Of a stretch of 37,512 nt of DNA, positions 15,301 to 23,317 are shown one piece after another; positions within the stretch are counted from its first letter, which is position 1; every line of letters begins with the position of its first letter. The notes under the pieces are model-generated. The model was not told the DNA's origin. It worked only from the letters and a program-made list of their open reading frames with translations, and made no database searches. The stretch covers positions 1 to 37,512 of the forward strand of contig JAQWTH010000003.1 in the NCBI GenBank assembly GCA_029242795.1. The letters run 5' to 3'. Both the position numbers and the translations under genes were made by a program. This stretch comes from Candidatus Pelagibacterales bacterium (GTDB lineage: Bacteria > Pseudomonadota > Alphaproteobacteria > Pelagibacterales > AG-422-B15).

Positions 15301-16480
15301 AATGCCATTCTTTAATCACACCTTTATCGCTTTCTAGATGAAGATAGCTCTTCTTTAGTTTTTCAAATTTTTTCTTTGTACATAATTGAGACAAAGACCA
15401 AACAGCCATAGCTCTTACAAGATGAGAATTATCACTTAAAAGAGGGGTAATATCATCAACAAAATTAACATCTCCTGAGTTACCAGCAGCAATAAGCACA
15501 TTTCTTAAAAATCTATTTCTTCCAATACGCTTTATGCTTGTAGTCGAAAATAATTTTCTAAAACCATCATCATCTAATTTTAAAAAACTTTTTAGTTTTG
15601 GATTATTGAATTCCTTGCGAGGAAAGAAATCTTCATTATTTGTTTTTTTTGCATATTTATTCCACGGACAAACTGCTAAGCAATCATCACATCCATAAAC
15701 TCTATTTCCAATTTTTTTTCGATATAATTCAGGAATATGAGATTTATGTTCTATTGTAAGATATGAGATGCATTTGCTAGCATTAATTTGATATGGACTT
15801 TCAATGGCATTAGTAGGGCAAATATCAATACACCTTTGACAAGATCCACAGTGATCAATCATCTCATTATCACCTTCAAGATCAATATCTAAAAAGATTG
15901 AAGATAGAAACAGCCAAGAGCCAAATTCTTTTGAAACAATATTGGTATGCTTGCCTTGCCAGCCAATTCCTGCTTTCATCGCAAGCGGCTTTTCCATAAT
16001 TGGAGCAGTATCAACAAAATATTTAACGTCGCATTTATAGTTATCAGTAATCCATCTTGACAGAGATTTTAATCTTTTTTTTATCGTTAGATGATAATCT
16101 CTTCCTCTGGCATAAACTGATACAATGCCAATATCTTTTTCATTTAATAAAGATAAAGAGTTTTCATGAAAATGATAATTACTTGCCAAGACCAGTATCG
16201 ATTTAGCTTCATTCCAAAGATTTTTTGGACTTGATCTAATCTCAGATCGATCTTCCATCCAACTCATTTCCCCATGGTAATTTTTCTTGAGAAAATTATG
16301 TAATTCTCTTTTTTGATTTTGAGTATTTTTTATATTTAAAATCTTTGCTTCATCAAATCCAAAACGGATAGCGTCTTCAATTAAATTTTTTTCTTTGGAT
16401 CTAGAACTTATTGAAGACTCTGCTTCTTTTGATCTTCGCTTAAAGAATGTTCCAGTGTATGAATTATCTCTTTTGGGCAT
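15293..16480 (-). CDS. queG: Epoxyqueuosine reductase
   Basis: Reduces epoxyqueuosine to queuosine in the wobble position of GUN-anticodon tRNAs, using cobalamin and two [4Fe-4S] clusters. The C-terminal half shows the ferredoxin-like cluster motifs CGSCQRCIDICP and CDDCLAVCPW, plus a trailing HEAT-like helical repeat (LLSDNSHLVRAMAVWSLSQL). Upstream are the family segments PKNLWNEAKSILVLASNYH, YARGRDYH and DTAPIMEKPLA. The only in-frame standard start before the conserved domain is the ATG at 16480, which puts the first 24 codons inside the end of gltB (73-bp overlap). The first about 28 residues are therefore non-conserved and Ser/Arg/Lys-rich. The clusters appear intact. Confidence 0.93.
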   Translation of the reverse strand: MPKRDNSYTGTFFKRRSKEAESSISSRSKEKNLIEDAIRFGFDEAKILNIKNTQNQKRELHNFLKKNYHGEMSWMEDRSEIRSSPKNLWNEAKSILVLASNYHFHENSLSLLNEKDIGIVSVYARGRDYHLTIKKRLKSLSRWITDNYKCDVKYFVDTAPIMEKPLAMKAGIGWQGKHTNIVSKEFGSWLFLSSIFLDIDLEGDNEMIDHCGSCQRCIDICPTNAIESPYQINASKCISYLTIEHKSHIPELYRKKIGNRVYGCDDCLAVCPWNKYAKKTNNEDFFPRKEFNNPKLKSFLKLDDDGFRKLFSTTSIKRIGRNRFLRNVLIAAGNSGDVNFVDDITPLLSDNSHLVRAMAVWSLSQLCTKKKFEKLKKSYLHLESDKGVIKEWHFI

Positions 16481-19400
16481 ATCTGTATAAATTTAAGCTT
16501 TTCAGTATCCCAATCATCTAGAATACGCCTTGCATGCTTACTTCCTGTTTCATTATAGTGTTTATTAATAAAATCCTTTAATACATTTTCCCAGTACTTA
16601 CTCTGTATTTTATCAAAAATAAGTGTCTCTTCATTTACTCTATGCTTAAAATTATCATCAATGTCATAAACGAAAGCCATTCCTCCTGTCATTCCCGCAC
16701 CAAAATTATCTCCTGTAGGTCCTAAAATTATTATATTACCTCCAGTCATGTACTCACATCCATTAGAACCACACCCTTCAACTACGGCTGTTGCACCTGA
16801 ATTTCTTACAGCAAATCTCTCTCCCGCTTGTCCGGAGGCGAATAAAGAACCACTTGTTGCCCCGTACATGCATGTATTTCCAATTATAGTATTTTCATTT
16901 GAATTAAGTCGACTATTTTTGTGTGGTCTAATAATAATCTTAGCGCCAGATAAACTTTTACCAACATAATCATTTGCATCACCTTCAACTTTAATGCTAA
17001 GACCTTTAACTGCAAATGCCCCCAAAGATTGACCAGCGGAGCCTTCTAAATTAAGTATCAATTGATCATCATTAATATCAGTATCTTTTAATTTCTGATA
17101 CATAACAGAAGATAATTTTGCACCGATTGTTCTATCGGTATTTTTTACTGAATAGTGAAGTTCTGTTTTTTGTCTAGTTTCAAAAAACTTTGTTGCATCA
17201 ACTATAATTTTTTCATCAAGAGTTGATCCTGCATCATTAATACTTTTATGATTAAAATATTCTATATTTGATTCCTTCTCGGCTTGAATTAAAAGTGAAT
17301 TTAAGTCTAAATCGTCTAGATGAGATGAGCCTCTTGAAATCTGATAAAGCAAATCTGTCCTTCCAATGATTTCATTCAGACTAACAAATCCAAGTTCAGC
17401 TAAAATTTCTCTTACTTCTTCAGCGATAAAACTAAATAAATTAACTACTTTCTCTGCTGTTCCTGAAAATCTTTTTCTTAAATCATCGTCTTGAGTACAA
17501 ACACCAACAGGACATGTATTACTATGACATTGACGTACAAGTATGCAGCCCATTGCAACAAGAGATGTTGTTCCCAAATTAAATTCTTCTGCACCCATAA
17601 GTGCTGCCATTACTACATCTCTACCTGTTTTAATGCCTCCATCTGTTCTCAAAGTTACATTCTGACGTAAACCATTTAGTGTCAAAACTTGATTTACTTC
17701 TGTAAGTCCCATTTCCCATGGTATGCCTGCATATTTGACACTCGTTTGTGGGCTAGCTCCCGTTCCACCATTGTGACCAGATATTAGAATCACATCAGCT
17801 TTTGCTTTTGCCACACCGGCCGCAATAGTTCCTATTCCTGATGAAGCAACGAGTTTTACACAAACTCTTGCATTGGGATTTATTTGTTTCAAATCAAAAA
17901 TCAGTTGAGCTAAATCTTCAATTGAGTAGATGTCATGATGAGGTGGTGGTGAAATAAGAGTCACGCCAAGCGTACTGTGTCTTAATTTAGCTATTTCAGC
18001 AGTAACCTTAAAACCTGGAAGTTGCCCTCCTTCACCAGGTTTTGCTCCCTGAGCAATTTTTATTTCTATTTCCTCACAATTATTAAGATACTCAGCTGTC
18101 ACCCCAAATCTTCCAGAGGCTACCTGTTTAACTCTTGAATTTGCGTTATCTCCATTTTTTCGAGTAATTGATCTTTCAATTGACTCTCCACCTTCTCCAC
18201 TGCACGACGACCCCCCTATTCTATTCATTGCAATCGCTAGAGTTTCATGAGCTTCTTTAGAAAGAGCTCCATGAGACATACTCCCACTTCCAAATCTCTT
18301 CCTAATTGATGTAATAGACTCTACGTCACTTACTAACTTTTTTTCTTTAACTGATTTAAATTCTAATAAATCCCTAATGTTAATTGGTGAAAAATTCTTA
18401 TGAGCTAAAGAGTATTTTTTATACAAATCGTATGAGTCATTTGAAACGGCTGTTTGCAGTAAATGTATTAATTTTCCATCATAAGCGTGAATTTCTTCTC
18501 CATATCTGTATCTGTATATACCTCCAATAGGTAATGTATCTACATCCCCGGAGTATGCGTAAGAATGAAGTTGATTAATCTTGAACTCAATTCCTTTTAA
18601 CCCAATGCCAGATATTCGACTTTGTACTCCAAGGAAATATTCATTTACCATTGAGCGACTTAACCCAACAGCCTCGAAATTAAATCCACCTCTGTACGCA
18701 GACAAGACAGAAATACCAAGTTTGGCCATTACTTTTAGGAGGCCTTGGTCAACAGCTTTTTTATATCTTTGAACACATTCTTCATAACTTAAATTCTTAA
18801 ACAGCCCTTTTTCATGCCTTTCTCTGATACACTCTTGAGCAAGATAGGGATTTACAGTTGTTGCACCTACCCCGATCAGCACAGCAAAGTAGTGTGTGTC
18901 TAAACACTCAGCTGATTGAGTATGAATCGATACAAAAGATCTTATCCCTTTTCTGGTTAAAAAAGTATGAACTGCAGCGGTTGCAAGAATTATTGGGGCT
19001 GAAACTTTATCGTGATCCGAATTAATATCTGTTAATACTACATGCTGCTTTCCACTTAACACAGCTGCCTCAGCCTCGCTCTGAATTCTTTTTATTGTTT
19101 CCTTTAATGAAGTTTTTTTTAAATCAAAAGAACAGTCTATTACTCTAGTTACATTCTGTCCAAACTTCATCATTTTCGAGAAGATACTATTAGTAATGAT
19201 AGGGCTATCCATCACAAAAACATTATCTTGATATGAATTAGAGTCCAAAACGTCTCTTAAATTTCCAAATCGCGTCTTCAAGCTCATTCTTGACTGCTCT
19301 CTTAAGCTATCGATAGGTGGGTTAGTAACTTGACTAAATTTTTGTCTGAAAAAATGAGATAGAGGTCTAAATTTATCTGATAACACTGCAATTGGTGTAT

Positions 19401-20925
19401 CATCACCCATTGACCCAGTAGCCTCTTTTGCCTCAGCAACCATTGGATGTAATATTAACTCTAATTCCTCCAATGTATAACCTGCGGCAATTTTACGCTG
19501 CCTTAATGATTTAAAATCGAAAAGGTTAATTTCTTTTTTTGATGTTATTCTTTTGTCAATTCTAATAATTTTCTTAACAAACTCATGATATGGATATTGA
19601 TTAGCAAGTTTGTCTTTTAATTCAAAATTCTCGTATAATTTTCCTTCTTTAAGATTGACACCCAACAAGTCACCCGGTCCTAATCTGCCCTTAAAAATTA
19701 TTTCATCTTCGTCGACTGGGACCATTCCAGTCTCAGATCCTGCAACAATTAAATTACTATTCGTAATGCAATATCGCATTGGCCTTAATCCGTTTCTATC
19801 CATGCCGCCGATTACCCATTCACCATCGTAAGCTGCAATTGCTGCTGGACCATCCCAAGGTTCGATAGTTCCATTTGCAAATTCATACATATTGGAATGA
19901 GAAGAAGGTATAAGCTTACTTCTTTTTGACCACGCTTCCGGCATTAATAACGTTTTTGTTAAAGGAGCAGATCTTCCTGCACGTACAAATAATTCAAAGG
20001 CTGAATCAAGTGCTGAAGAGTCTGAACTTCCTCTAATTATAATAGGTTTGACTTGCTCACTATTTTCTCCAAATAATTCAGATGCAATTCTATTTTCATG
20101 ATTACGCATCCAATTTGAATTACCAGATATAGTATTAATTTCTCCATTGTGAGCTAATGTTCTAAATGGCTGAGCAAGTGCCCAACTAGGAAAAGTATTT
20201 GTTGAATACCTCTGATGAAAAATCGCAAATGAAGAAATAAAATTTTCATTCTGCAAATCAGGATAAAATACTTCTAACTCTTCAGCTAAAAATAGACCCT
20301 TATAGATAACAGACTTAAAACTTAAAGAACATATGTAAAATTCACTAATTTGAAGATTTAATATTCTTTTTTCTATTCTCCTTCTTATTAAAAAAAGTTC
20401 TTTGTCCAAGTCCTCATCTTCAATTCTTTCTTTGTTATTTACAAACATAACTTGCTCAATATCAGGTCTGGTCATATTTGCTTTTTTACCAATAACGCTA
20501 GTGTCAACAGGTACCTGTCTCCATCCATAAATAAAGTATCCGTGATCAATCAACTCCGACTCTACAATTGTTCTGCATTTTTCTAGAGCAGAGTAATCAT
20601 TTCGAGGAAGAAACATCATGCCTATACCAAAATCTCCCTGCATCATTTCATGACCAGTTTTTTCTATCTCTTCTTCAAAAAAATCTTTTGGAATTTCTAA
20701 ATGTATACCGGCGCCATCACCTGTTTTACCATCAGCATCTATTGCGCCACGATGCCATACAGCCTTAAGTGCTTCAATTCCACTTATCACAACACGTCTG
20801 TTCGGCTTTCCATCAATTGCAGCAATAAAACCAACACCACAAGCATCGTGCTCTTGCATTGAATCATATAAATTTGCATCAACTAGCATTTGCTTATTTT
20901 TATTATATCGATCTAACCAACTCAT
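16408..20925 (-). CDS. gltB: Glutamate synthase (NADPH) large subunit
   Basis: GltB, with GltD, converts glutamine and 2-oxoglutarate to two glutamates, the assimilating half of the GS-GOGAT cycle. It is full length (1505 residues). After a propeptide of about 28 residues comes the amidotransferase nucleophile C29 in EHDACGVGFIA, then the class II glutaminase domain (with FHQRYSTNTFPSW and LAHNGEINT). A central domain follows, then the FMN/synthase barrel (GSMSHGALSKEAHE, GEGGESIERS, SGHNGGTGASP). The 3Fe-4S ligands lie in CILVRQCHSNTC (C-x5-C-x4-C). The C-terminal beta-helix has GGNIIILGPTGDNFGAGMTGG. It starts with ATG and overlaps the gltD stop by one base (TAATG). It has an unusual 73-bp overlap with queG. 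Confidence 0.98.
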   Translation of the reverse strand: MSWLDRYNKNKQMLVDANLYDSMQEHDACGVGFIAAIDGKPNRRVVISGIEALKAVWHRGAIDADGKTGDGAGIHLEIPKDFFEEEIEKTGHEMMQGDFGIGMMFLPRNDYSALEKCRTIVESELIDHGYFIYGWRQVPVDTSVIGKKANMTRPDIEQVMFVNNKERIEDEDLDKELFLIRRRIEKRILNLQISEFYICSLSFKSVIYKGLFLAEELEVFYPDLQNENFISSFAIFHQRYSTNTFPSWALAQPFRTLAHNGEINTISGNSNWMRNHENRIASELFGENSEQVKPIIIRGSSDSSALDSAFELFVRAGRSAPLTKTLLMPEAWSKRSKLIPSSHSNMYEFANGTIEPWDGPAAIAAYDGEWVIGGMDRNGLRPMRYCITNSNLIVAGSETGMVPVDEDEIIFKGRLGPGDLLGVNLKEGKLYENFELKDKLANQYPYHEFVKKIIRIDKRITSKKEINLFDFKSLRQRKIAAGYTLEELELILHPMVAEAKEATGSMGDDTPIAVLSDKFRPLSHFFRQKFSQVTNPPIDSLREQSRMSLKTRFGNLRDVLDSNSYQDNVFVMDSPIITNSIFSKMMKFGQNVTRVIDCSFDLKKTSLKETIKRIQSEAEAAVLSGKQHVVLTDINSDHDKVSAPIILATAAVHTFLTRKGIRSFVSIHTQSAECLDTHYFAVLIGVGATTVNPYLAQECIRERHEKGLFKNLSYEECVQRYKKAVDQGLLKVMAKLGISVLSAYRGGFNFEAVGLSRSMVNEYFLGVQSRISGIGLKGIEFKINQLHSYAYSGDVDTLPIGGIYRYRYGEEIHAYDGKLIHLLQTAVSNDSYDLYKKYSLAHKNFSPINIRDLLEFKSVKEKKLVSDVESITSIRKRFGSGSMSHGALSKEAHETLAIAMNRIGGSSCSGEGGESIERSITRKNGDNANSRVKQVASGRFGVTAEYLNNCEEIEIKIAQGAKPGEGGQLPGFKVTAEIAKLRHSTLGVTLISPPPHHDIYSIEDLAQLIFDLKQINPNARVCVKLVASSGIGTIAAGVAKAKADVILISGHNGGTGASPQTSVKYAGIPWEMGLTEVNQVLTLNGLRQNVTLRTDGGIKTGRDVVMAALMGAEEFNLGTTSLVAMGCILVRQCHSNTCPVGVCTQDDDLRKRFSGTAEKVVNLFSFIAEEVREILAELGFVSLNEIIGRTDLLYQISRGSSHLDDLDLNSLLIQAEKESNIEYFNHKSINDAGSTLDEKIIVDATKFFETRQKTELHYSVKNTDRTIGAKLSSVMYQKLKDTDINDDQLILNLEGSAGQSLGAFAVKGLSIKVEGDANDYVGKSLSGAKIIIRPHKNSRLNSNENTIIGNTCMYGATSGSLFASGQAGERFAVRNSGATAVVEGCGSNGCEYMTGGNIIILGPTGDNFGAGMTGGMAFVYDIDDNFKHRVNEETLIFDKIQSKYWENVLKDFINKHYNETGSKHARRILDDWDTEKLKFIQICPKEIIHTLEHSLSEDQKKQSLQ

Positions 20926-22355
20926 TACGAAGCCTTCACTATTTCCTGGTTTTTTGCTTCTACATAGCTATGAATTGACTCTGCAGCATCTCTACCGTCT
21001 CTAATGCCCCACACAACTAATGAAGCTCCTCTTGCAATATCGCCAGCAGCAAATACACCATCTAATTCAGTCATCAAAGTACTAAACGATGTTTTAACGG
21101 TGCCCCACTTTGTTATTGGGAGTTCTTTTTCATTAAACAGATTTGGCAAATCTTCTGGATCAAATCCTAATGCTTCAATAACGATATCAGCTTTTAAGCT
21201 AAATTCTGAATTTTCAATCTCAATAGGCACTTGTCTTCCTGAAGCATCGGGTTCACTCAATTTTGTTTTTGCACATATAACTTCTTTGATCCTACTATCT
21301 CCATGAAATGACTTAGGTATAGATTGCCATATGAACTCAACACCTTCTTCTTCAGCATTTAAGACTTCCCGAGTTGAACCAGGCATATTTTCTCTATCTC
21401 TTCGATATAGACATTTGACTGATTTTGCATTTTGACGAACACTTGTCCTTACACAGTCCATAGCGGTATCGCCACCGCCAATAACAATAACATCCTTACC
21501 CTCAGCATTTAAAGTGCCATCATCAAATAGCTCAACTTTATCACCGAGACCTTTTTTATTAGAAGCAGTTAGAAAATCTAAAGCTGGATGTATGTTGGGA
21601 TAATTAGTTTTAACATCAAGCTTTCGGGGTTTATAAACACCTGTAGCAATTAAAATAGCTTCGTGTTTTTTTCTTATTTCTTGAAAAGAAATATCTTTAC
21701 CAATATTTACATTTAAATAAAATTTAATACCTGAGTCTTCAAGATATTTTATTCTTCTTTCAACAATATTTTTTTCTAATTTGAAATTAGGAATACCATA
21801 AATAAGCAGGCCCCCTGCACGATCATAACGATCATATATTGTAATCTCATATCCTTTTTTTCTAAGTTCATCTGCCGCTGCAAGTCCAGCGGGCCCAGAA
21901 CCAATTATTCCTATACTTTCATTTCGAACTTGATTCTTCTCAAGTTGTATTGGCTTAATCCAATTATTTTCAAATGCGTTATCAGTTAAATACTTTTCAA
22001 TTGATCCAATCGTAACTGAACCATGGCCACTTTGCTCAATAACACAATTGCCTTCGCATAAACGATCTTGAGGACATATCCTTCCAGTAATCTCAGGCAA
22101 ATTATTTGTACTTGCTGATAATTGATATGCTTCCTCTAATCGATTCTCAGCAGTAAGTTTTAGCCAGTCAGGAATATGGTTATGAAGAGGACAATGAACT
22201 GTGCAGTATGGAACGCCGCACTGAGAACATCGACTTGATTGTTCCTCAGCCTTATCCTTTACATACCCCTTATATATTTCATTAAAGTTAGTCTTACGGT
22301 CTTTAGATTCAAATTTCTCAGGATAGTTTTGATGTAAGTCCGTAAATTTAAGCAT
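20925..22355 (-). CDS. gltD: Glutamate synthase (NADPH) small subunit
   Basis: NADPH-oxidising, FAD-containing beta subunit of glutamate synthase, 476 residues. The N-terminal region has the two Cys-rich cluster motifs, CSQCGVPYCTVHCP and CPQDRLCEGNC. Then come the FAD site IIGSGPAGLAAADEL, followed by YDRAGGLLIYGIPNFKL, and the NADPH site VIVIGGGDTAMDCVR. FAAGDIARGASLVVWGIRDGRDAA near the C-terminus closes the FAD site. It is the first gene of the gltD-gltB-queG transcription unit, the reverse of the gltB-gltD order in enteric bacteria. Its upstream region holds two copies of a conserved dyad (22369-22383 and 22443-22457) that may control it. Confidence 0.98.
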   Translation of the reverse strand: MLKFTDLHQNYPEKFESKDRKTNFNEIYKGYVKDKAEEQSSRCSQCGVPYCTVHCPLHNHIPDWLKLTAENRLEEAYQLSASTNNLPEITGRICPQDRLCEGNCVIEQSGHGSVTIGSIEKYLTDNAFENNWIKPIQLEKNQVRNESIGIIGSGPAGLAAADELRKKGYEITIYDRYDRAGGLLIYGIPNFKLEKNIVERRIKYLEDSGIKFYLNVNIGKDISFQEIRKKHEAILIATGVYKPRKLDVKTNYPNIHPALDFLTASNKKGLGDKVELFDDGTLNAEGKDVIVIGGGDTAMDCVRTSVRQNAKSVKCLYRRDRENMPGSTREVLNAEEEGVEFIWQSIPKSFHGDSRIKEVICAKTKLSEPDASGRQVPIEIENSEFSLKADIVIEALGFDPEDLPNLFNEKELPITKWGTVKTSFSTLMTELDGVFAAGDIARGASLVVWGIRDGRDAAESIHSYVEAKNQEIVKAS

Positions 22356-22368
22356 AGTATTTATTTAT

Positions 22369-22383
22369 GTCATATAGTATGAC
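22369..22383. promoter_or_regulatory. Dyad GTCATA-N3-TATGAC, proximal copy
   Basis: A perfect 15-bp inverted repeat with 6-bp arms and centre TAG, 14 bp upstream of the gltD start codon. A second copy with the same arms and spacing lies 74 bp away. Position and recurrence suggest a transcription-factor operator acting on gltDB, and perhaps uppP. The regulator is unknown. The odd 3-bp spacing would suit, for example, a GntR- or other wHTH-type dimer; this is inference. Confidence 0.55.
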
Positions 22384-22442
22384 TTTTTCTTATAATTAAT
22401 TAAAATTTCACTTTCTTATAGACTAATGAGTATACTAATAAA

Positions 22443-22457
22443 GTCATAACATATGAC
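22443..22457. promoter_or_regulatory. Dyad GTCATA-N3-TATGAC, distal copy
   Basis: The second perfect copy of the same inverted repeat, centre ACA, about 88 bp upstream of gltD and 68 bp upstream of uppP. Centre-to-centre distance to the proximal copy is 74 bp, about seven helical turns, so both sites could face the same side of the DNA. A further palindrome, AGTATACT, lies between them (about 22429-22437). Confidence 0.55.
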
Positions 22458-22485
22458 CTATATATGTATTTTAACCAACTTTTAT

Positions 22486-22514
22486 TTGGCAAAATGGCAA
22501 TAACATTCTATTTT
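22486..22514 (+). promoter_or_regulatory. Possible uppP promoter
   Basis: A -35 box TTGGCA (22486-22491, one mismatch to TTGACA) is separated by 17 bp from a -10-like TATTTT (22509-22514). The expected start site near 22521 leaves only a few bases before the uppP ATG at 22526. The -10 is weak, and the region is AT-rich. Confidence 0.35.
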
Positions 22515-22525
22515 TCATTAAATTT

Positions 22526-23317
22526 ATGTATTTTTTTCCAGTTATCCTATTAGCAATTATTCAAGGAATTACAGAGTTTTTACCAGTAAGCTCTTCAGCT
22601 CATTTAATAATTGCCTCAGATTTCATTGAATTTACATATGAAAATATTGCTCTCGATGTCAGCCTTCATTTAGGGACTCTACTTGCAGTTATAGTTTACT
22701 TTAGATCAGATATTTTATTAATAATGAATGGGATCATTGATCCTCAGAGTAATGGGAGGAATGCTGCTATTCAAATATTTGTTGCTACTGTTCCAATCGT
22801 AGTCTTTGGAGGTCTCGCTTTCATGACAGGGATAATTGACTATTTCAGAAATATTCAAGTTATTGCACTTTCAACTATTATTTTTGGAGTTGTTCTTTAT
22901 TACGCTGATATTCAAAATGATAAAAAAAATAAAACTATTAATGAGCTTAAAATTGAAGAAAGCTTTATCATCGGACTTTTTCAAGTTCTTGCAATAATTC
23001 CTGGAACATCAAGATCAGGAATTGTTTATAGTGGCGGCAGGTTCTTAAATATATCCCGAATTGAAGCCCTAAGATTTGCTATGCTACTTTCAATACCTAC
23101 TATTTTACTATCTGCATTCATTCCAACCTACAAATTTATAGAAAGTCCATCTTCTGAGTTTTTACTAATGGGCATTGTTGGTCTTATTGTTTCATTTGGA
23201 ACTGCTTATCTTTCTATCAGTCTGCTCATGAGTATGGTTAAAAAATTTTCGATGGTACCATTTGTAGTTTATAGGATTATTTTGGGAAGTGTTCTTTTAA
23301 TATATTCAATAGTCTAA
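22526..23317 (+). CDS. uppP: Undecaprenyl-diphosphatase (BacA family)
   Basis: Integral membrane enzyme that removes a phosphate from undecaprenyl pyrophosphate, renewing the lipid carrier for peptidoglycan and other envelope polymers. The 263-residue, strongly hydrophobic protein (seven or eight membrane spans) has the family motif EFLPVSSSAHLI at residues 16-27 and the second motif PGTSRSGIVYSGG, whose Arg and Ser belong to the active site. It starts with ATG. The next gene converges with a 4-bp gap. The uppP and NDUFA9-like pair is frequent in Alphaproteobacteria. Confidence 0.96.
   Translation: MYFFPVILLAIIQGITEFLPVSSSAHLIIASDFIEFTYENIALDVSLHLGTLLAVIVYFRSDILLIMNGIIDPQSNGRNAAIQIFVATVPIVVFGGLAFMTGIIDYFRNIQVIALSTIIFGVVLYYADIQNDKKNKTINELKIEESFIIGLFQVLAIIPGTSRSGIVYSGGRFLNISRIEALRFAMLLSIPTILLSAFIPTYKFIESPSSEFLLMGIVGLIVSFGTAYLSISLLMSMVKKFSMVPFVVYRIILGSVLLIYSIV

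Follow-up and report, generated by a model that had tools for sequence, protein, structure and literature searches.

The window, the whole stretch of 37,512 nucleotides analysed here (contig JAQWTH010000003.1 of the Candidatus Pelagibacterales assembly GCA_029242795.1), carries the genes for both subunits of glutamate synthase and, divergent from them, the gene for undecaprenyl-diphosphate phosphatase (Table 1). The gltD gene is the first of the operon under control (gltDB). Two exact copies of the dyad GTCATA-N3-TATGAC, 74 bp apart centre to centre, lie in the spacer between gltD and uppP where an earlier note had placed them, and the note's view that chance is very unlikely to produce such a pair agrees with a control in which the window was shuffled 100 times with its dinucleotide composition preserved and no exact match appeared. 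The arms, GTCATA and TATGAC, do not have the letters of a TGCACC-N5-GGTGCA-like element, in keeping with the same note's statement that no NtrC-type site is present. Relative to the inferred gltDB transcription start, the upstream dyad is centred at about -42 and the downstream dyad at about +33, within the inferred gltD leader.

The divergent uppP gene is probably not the target of the dyads. The site goes with gltD, since 6 of the 16 genomes of other Alphaproteobacteria that have the exact dyad core showed no recognisable uppP next to gltD, a neighbour call that was made by text pattern and may miss some. Between the upstream dyad and uppP, a second conserved element is seen at positions 22479-22501 of the window (CTTTTATTTGGCAAAATGGCAA), with a counterpart at related loci (L012-L026) that resembles TTTTACGCCAAATAGGCAAG when read in the sense of gltD; it is possibly part of the uppP promoter.

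Table 1. Features of the gltD/uppP spacer and its flanking genes (positions in the window)
Feature	Position	Strand	Sequence or length	Basis or remark
gltB, glutamate synthase large subunit	16408-20925	minus		NF008730 above cut-off
gltD, glutamate synthase small subunit	20925-22355	minus		TIGR01318 above cut-off
gltD/uppP spacer	22356-22525		170 bp	
Downstream dyad	22369-22383	minus	GTCATATAGTATGAC	exact match
Downstream dyad, 21-mer	22366-22386	minus	AAAGTCATACTATATGACATA	
Inferred gltDB -10 box	22415-22420	minus	TATAAG	22 bp past the upstream dyad; sequence and f1 consensus
Upstream dyad	22443-22457	minus	GTCATAACATATGAC	exact match
Upstream dyad, 21-mer	22440-22460	minus	TAGGTCATATGTTATGACTTT	
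uppP, undecaprenyl-diphosphate phosphatase	22526-23317	plus		NCBIfam UppP models, E 2.9e-76, below cut-offs

Conservation of the dyad in SAR11

The SAR11 relatives searched fall into two families, f1, to which the window belongs, and f2, with four genomes (G002, G004, G007 and G009) having no full GltD in this search. The conserved core is GTCA-N7-TGAC and the full form TAnGTCA-N7-TGACnTA. Across 110 SAR11 gltD loci, which include several with identical upstream DNA, the exact core is found within 180 bp upstream of the gene in 83, seven of its eight bases in a further 19, and no site in 8, one of which ends at 54 bp. Among the 21 loci of the f1 set (L006-L026), the upstream dyad has the exact core in 20 and seven of eight bases in the other, the downstream dyad has the exact core in 17 and seven of eight bases in the other four, and the distance between the two is 73-75 bp at every locus while the intervening bases vary. 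Most f2 loci have a single dyad, 73-87 bp upstream of gltD. The earlier note had made its proposal depend on conservation in the same spacer of related genomes, and that conservation is found; the dyads are real, old control sites. Its suggestion of a glutamate control site stands insofar as glutamate synthase has a genuine pair of operators here, but the pair is not the basic unit, given the single dyad of f2, and two dyads in phase are a trait of the window's own family. Two further elements were observed at f2 loci: a different dyad-like sequence (L027-L035), close to uppP and about 130 bp upstream of gltD, that reads GCATA-N5-TATGC or nearly so, and, at one locus (L029), the inverted repeat CGATCGCTTAT...ATAAGAGCGATCG, downstream of the dyad and just ahead of gltD.

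Conservation across Alphaproteobacteria

Of 142 genomes sampled over the class, 92 have a GltD match (E <= 1e-80), two of which (G000 and G025) are SAR11. Upstream DNA was read for 59 non-SAR11 genomes, all with different family labels and, except for G144 (44%), with GltD identity of at least 50%. Most of the remaining 31 have a GltD match of less than 41% identity; also outside the set read are G042 and G110, matched solely at a contig start, G116, G123 and G138 (44 bases). The exact core is present within 650 bp upstream of gltD in 16 of the 59 class genomes, and a site is present in 23 when one mismatch is allowed together with both TA flanks, compared with a mean of 0.34 and a maximum of 2 in shuffles of the same DNA; by this criterion 36 of the 59 are without a gltD site. 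Four control palindromes of the same layout occur in 0-1 class genomes each. An AT-rich background is not the cause of the class sites, as many of these genomes are G+C-rich. The fullest form of the operator reads TAGGTCA-N7-TGACCTA, for example in G079 and G175, and two near-matching dyads worth noting are present in only 3 of the 59 genomes, as two exact cores in G100 and G113 and as one exact core plus one with seven of eight bases in G177. At many class loci (e.g., L179, L181, L189, L204 and L256), a short T-run, often after CG, lies about 8-13 bp past the gltD dyad and may be part of a -35 region or of the binding site.

Occurrence of the dyad elsewhere in the genomes

A scan of the window's own genome (1.19 Mb in 47 contigs, 92.8% complete) for GTCATA-N3-TATGAC with up to one mismatch, as proposed in the earlier note, finds the exact pattern only at the two places in the gltD spacer and one-mismatch copies at three further places, of which one (L005) overlaps the petP start codon (petP being the name used here for a gene of the MarR family) and two (L003 and L004) are within open reading frames. 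The looser core GTCA-N7-TGAC has 12 exact matches in this genome and the reversed control pattern 17, showing no genome-wide enrichment; nine of the 12 are within open reading frames, two are at gltD and one is at petP, with no intergenic exact core besides these. In the window, one-mismatch forms of the core number 9 against 8.5 expected. A regulon defined by the core pattern alone was rejected on the grounds of its missing genome-wide enrichment and the nine coding places. The extended pattern AGGTCA-N7-TGACCT occurs at 18 places in 15 of 52 class genomes, compared with 2 for the reversed control. Six of the 18 places precede genes, namely gltD (G067, G079 and G175), petP (G053) and a gene of the indolepyruvate ferredoxin oxidoreductase family (G061 and G072), and five of these six have both the outer T and the outer A, G067 matching on the A side only. 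The other 12 are within open reading frames and lack the T/A flanks, so that the outer letters distinguish promoter places from coding ones in this class search. The places in G053 and G067 also overlap long mechanical open reading frames, which are taken as spurious in G+C-rich DNA.

A MarR-family gene with the same dyad

The first clue to a regulator was that, apart from the gltD pair, a single core match is not enclosed within a gene and this one overlaps the petP start codon, and the class-wide search with AGGTCA-N7-TGACCT reached the same junction between a MarR gene and ilvE in the distant genome G053. The PetP protein of the window's genome has a MarR domain by both PF12802 (35 bits, cut-off 27) and PF01047 (31 bits, cut-off 24.6) and scores above the cut-off of no named NCBIfam equivalog. 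The name was given from the order of petP and its OmpR-type neighbour, a likeness to Rhodobacter petP-petR in gene order; a gene for an OmpR-type response regulator follows petP in G000, G025 and G026. Of 34 genomes searched with this protein, 33 have a relative, and the exception (G069) is also without a gltD dyad. By text pattern, 28 of 30 loci have ilvE divergent from petP; the two exceptions, G080 and G065, are counted as PetP with tentative orthology.

With a scoring matrix built solely from 34 SAR11 gltD 21-mers, 30 of the 33 petP regions carry a site, at scores equalled in 0-6 of 200 shuffles. The three regions without one by this matrix are those of G150 and of the same two genomes that lack the ilvE neighbour. 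The core is exact at petP in all nine f1 genomes, in three of eight f2 genomes and in 11 of 16 class genomes, with two more of the latter at seven of eight bases, and in the other five f2 genomes (G026, G030, G032, G034 and G035) the site reads GTCA-N7-TTAC. Within the MarR domain, at least 90% of 27 relatives keep the segment KQSL.RVL, a conservation that matches the constancy of the operator. The association between the two sites is incomplete in both directions, with G025 and G028 having the self-site and no gltD dyad, and G080 and G150 having the gltD dyad and no petP site. As the same dyad marks petP, the regulator is probably the little-studied PetP rather than a protein of the NtrC/NtrX type, and PetP likely controls both itself and gltDB. 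By eye, the petP dyad overlaps the start codon or sits just upstream of it, beside a -10-like sequence. At several loci (L223-L233, L240, L247 and L251) the start codon is often within the 7-base centre of the dyad with the -10-like sequence just before it, as if petP were read from a leaderless transcript.

Promoter geometry and proposed mechanism

In 30 class sequences, a -10 hexamer peaks 41 bp past the dyad, a peak unmatched in 1000 shuffles and 1000 rotations; the test was run without the offsets adjoining the dyad, whose outer TA looks like a -10 box (the mean is highest, 1.32, at offset 1). With the hexamer taken as -12 to -7, the class dyad is centred at about -61. In f2, the consensus has a conserved TATA box about 31 bp past the dyad, giving a centre near -51, and in f1 the box at the distance given in Table 1 has the consensus TataAa in 21 sequences, although an offset scan in this AT-rich SAR11 DNA ranked the f1 and f2 distances only sixth and seventh, respectively. 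Centres near -61, -51 and -42 suggest activation of gltDB, as an activator that contacts RNA polymerase would have to move by such steps of 9-10 bp. The petP dyad, on the likely transcription start, suggests autorepression.

From the sites, their conservation and spacing, the fixed -10 distance in the class and the presence of the same dyad at petP, we infer that both dyads are quite probably operators of PetP, with activation of gltDB and repression of its own gene, the signal being assumed. PetP, encoded elsewhere in the genome between the divergent ilvE and the gene for an OmpR-type response regulator, would bind TAnGTCA-N7-TGACnTA as a dimer. With the upstream dyad just before the promoter and shifted by roughly one helical turn from lineage to lineage, PetP would most likely touch RNA polymerase and activate gltDB. 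In f1, the second in-phase dyad, seven turns away within the leader, would add a brake or a loop, and looping between the two dyads is possible. PetP would likely repress its own gene and perhaps also influence ilvE, in response to what is assumed to be an amino acid or a keto acid.

Alternative modes of control and alternative binders

Binding by PetP could instead repress gltDB, with the f1 upstream dyad abutting the -35 region and the downstream dyad blocking elongation, which is considered unlikely, if a good deal less so than the other alternatives. MarR proteins are mostly repressors, a fact that counts against activation; the f1 dyads flank the inferred promoter and the layout at petP itself looks repressive. 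However, in the 30 class sequences the 41 bp from dyad to -10 box leave the dyad outside the core promoter, and the lineage shifts of 9-10 bp resemble helical phasing. A role of the dyads as RNA hairpins of the gltD leader, or an origin by chance, is barely credible: a 6-bp stem could form at the downstream dyad, but folding of the leader is no better than that of shuffles (z -0.92, equalled or bettered by 37 of 200 shuffles) and the upstream dyad lies ahead of the inferred -10 box, while chance is excluded by the shuffles of the window and by the class shuffles and control palindromes.

Binders other than PetP were sought among genes of the LysR, HTH_8 (NtrX and RegA-like), AsnC, GntR and MerR families in seven genomes. 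Upstream regions were scored for 34 of the 35 regulator loci (L162, which was not placeable, was left out), and the best match reaches 9.1 bits and the next 7.4, compared with 10.3-25.7 on the same scale at 27 of 30 petP loci. The best match belongs to NtrX, an NtrC-family response regulator associated with nitrogen limitation in SAR11 that would bind GTCA-N7-TGAC if the dyads were its sites, and comes close to the 10.3 of the petP site in the same genome (G032); the core there is exact and sits within the open reading frame preceding ntrX, about 200 bp from that gene (L148, near 3017), and it is the only such core among the seven NtrX regions. The arm length and spacing of the dyad equal those of the NtrC core GCAC-N7-GTGC, the gene is present in all seven genomes, and NtrX is described as a regulator of the responses to nitrogen limitation (PMC13198564). 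Against this, the other six NtrX regions, where a site would be expected under autoregulation, score at most 1.4, the dyad marks petP instead, and no shared site was seen at further nitrogen genes of the window's genome, where no other intergenic exact core occurs; NtrX is thus an improbable binder. Equally improbable is the OmpR-type response regulator, a PetR-like protein for which the petP site would serve as control of its own operon. Its gene follows petP in the three genomes named above, but OmpR-type regulators mostly use direct repeats whereas the operator here is a symmetric dyad, and G054 keeps the dyad although the open reading frame after petP reads as no response regulator. Less probable still, and by some way, is a MerR-family protein. 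Each of the seven genomes has one such gene, and the TGTCA-N7-TGACA form of the dyad fits the TnrA/GlnR box TGTNA-N7-TNACA, which controls glutamate synthase in Bacillus; however, the MerR gene appears to follow an integration-host-factor-like gene at three loci (L169, L171 and L173), its seven upstream regions score at most 7.4, and the DNA-binding part of the protein differs strongly between f1 and f2, which the operator does not. LysR operators are T-N11-A dyads, typically in a 4-N7-4 arrangement, and GTCA-N7-TGAC contains this geometry; a LysR binder was rejected, the gene being present in all four f2 genomes and in none of the three f1 genomes. A GntR gene was found in one of the seven genomes and AsnC in six, and a RegA-like gene in all seven, represented in G003 by just a short, stop-containing match. 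Over whole 3-kb loci, stronger chance-like matches of 14.8 (AsnC locus) and 14.5 bits (RegA locus) lie about 1 kb beyond the regulator gene.

Relation to known systems and significance

The operator is real and old, and PetP is a strong candidate for its regulator. SAR11 bacteria are reported to be without PII and NtrBC, and how they control nitrogen assimilation without these was reportedly named an open question by Smith et al. in 2013, who are also said to have seen gltBD rise in nitrogen-limited SAR11 and to have implicated NtrX. As SAR11 are among the most abundant bacteria of the ocean, nitrogen control there matters. A wider reading, which is possible and is held here only tentatively, is that PetP is an ancient, class-wide MarR regulator sensing amino or keto acids and, as a functional equivalent of Lrp, activating glutamate synthase and controlling its own gene together with amino-acid genes (the ilvE junction and indolepyruvate oxidoreductase). 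If this is true, PetP has persisted in SAR11 and may be the chief means of controlling glutamate synthesis at the level of transcription there, one family of SAR11 having doubled the site and added a brake. The outcome is a specific operator, a purifiable candidate regulator and a short list of targets, testable in cultured alphaproteobacteria with the same dyad.

In kind, an autoregulated MarR-type dyad is ordinary. The features shared with the operators of these winged-helix dimers are the symmetric dyad, the presence of the same dyad at the start of the MarR gene itself, and the divergence of petP from a metabolic gene; unlike them, the main conserved target of PetP is the unlinked glutamate synthase, and the class position suggests activation. 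As a regulon, it is absent from the results of a literature search made by title, from which subscription papers are largely absent, and which returned nothing on the operator or on PetP with glutamate synthase, leaving its unpublished status unproven. The gene order of petP followed by petR in Rhodobacter is shared in the form of a MarR-like gene and then an OmpR-type response regulator gene. In Rhodobacter capsulatus, petP-petR is described as needed for photosynthetic and respiratory growth (PMC3616918), in passages that mention neither an operator nor a link to glutamate synthase, the likeness being one of gene order. The resemblance to NtrC and NtrX sites consists of two 4-base arms around a 7-base spacer, as in the NtrC core, and of the control of nitrogen assimilation, whereas the arm letters differ and six of the seven NtrX regions are without a site. 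Control of gltBD by Lrp in Escherichia coli is comparable in that the targets gltDB, the petP-ilvE junction and indolepyruvate oxidoreductase are linked to amino acids, but no AsnC/Lrp match was found in G026, which has the exact gltD dyad. The TnrA/GlnR box of Bacillus has in common with the dyad the TGTCA-N7-TGACA form and the glutamate synthase target, whereas the sole MerR protein found here is of another kind and without a site at its own gene. Many of the f1 downstream dyads and of the petP sites conform to TGTNA-N7-TNACA, and the GGTCA-N7-TGACC form does not.
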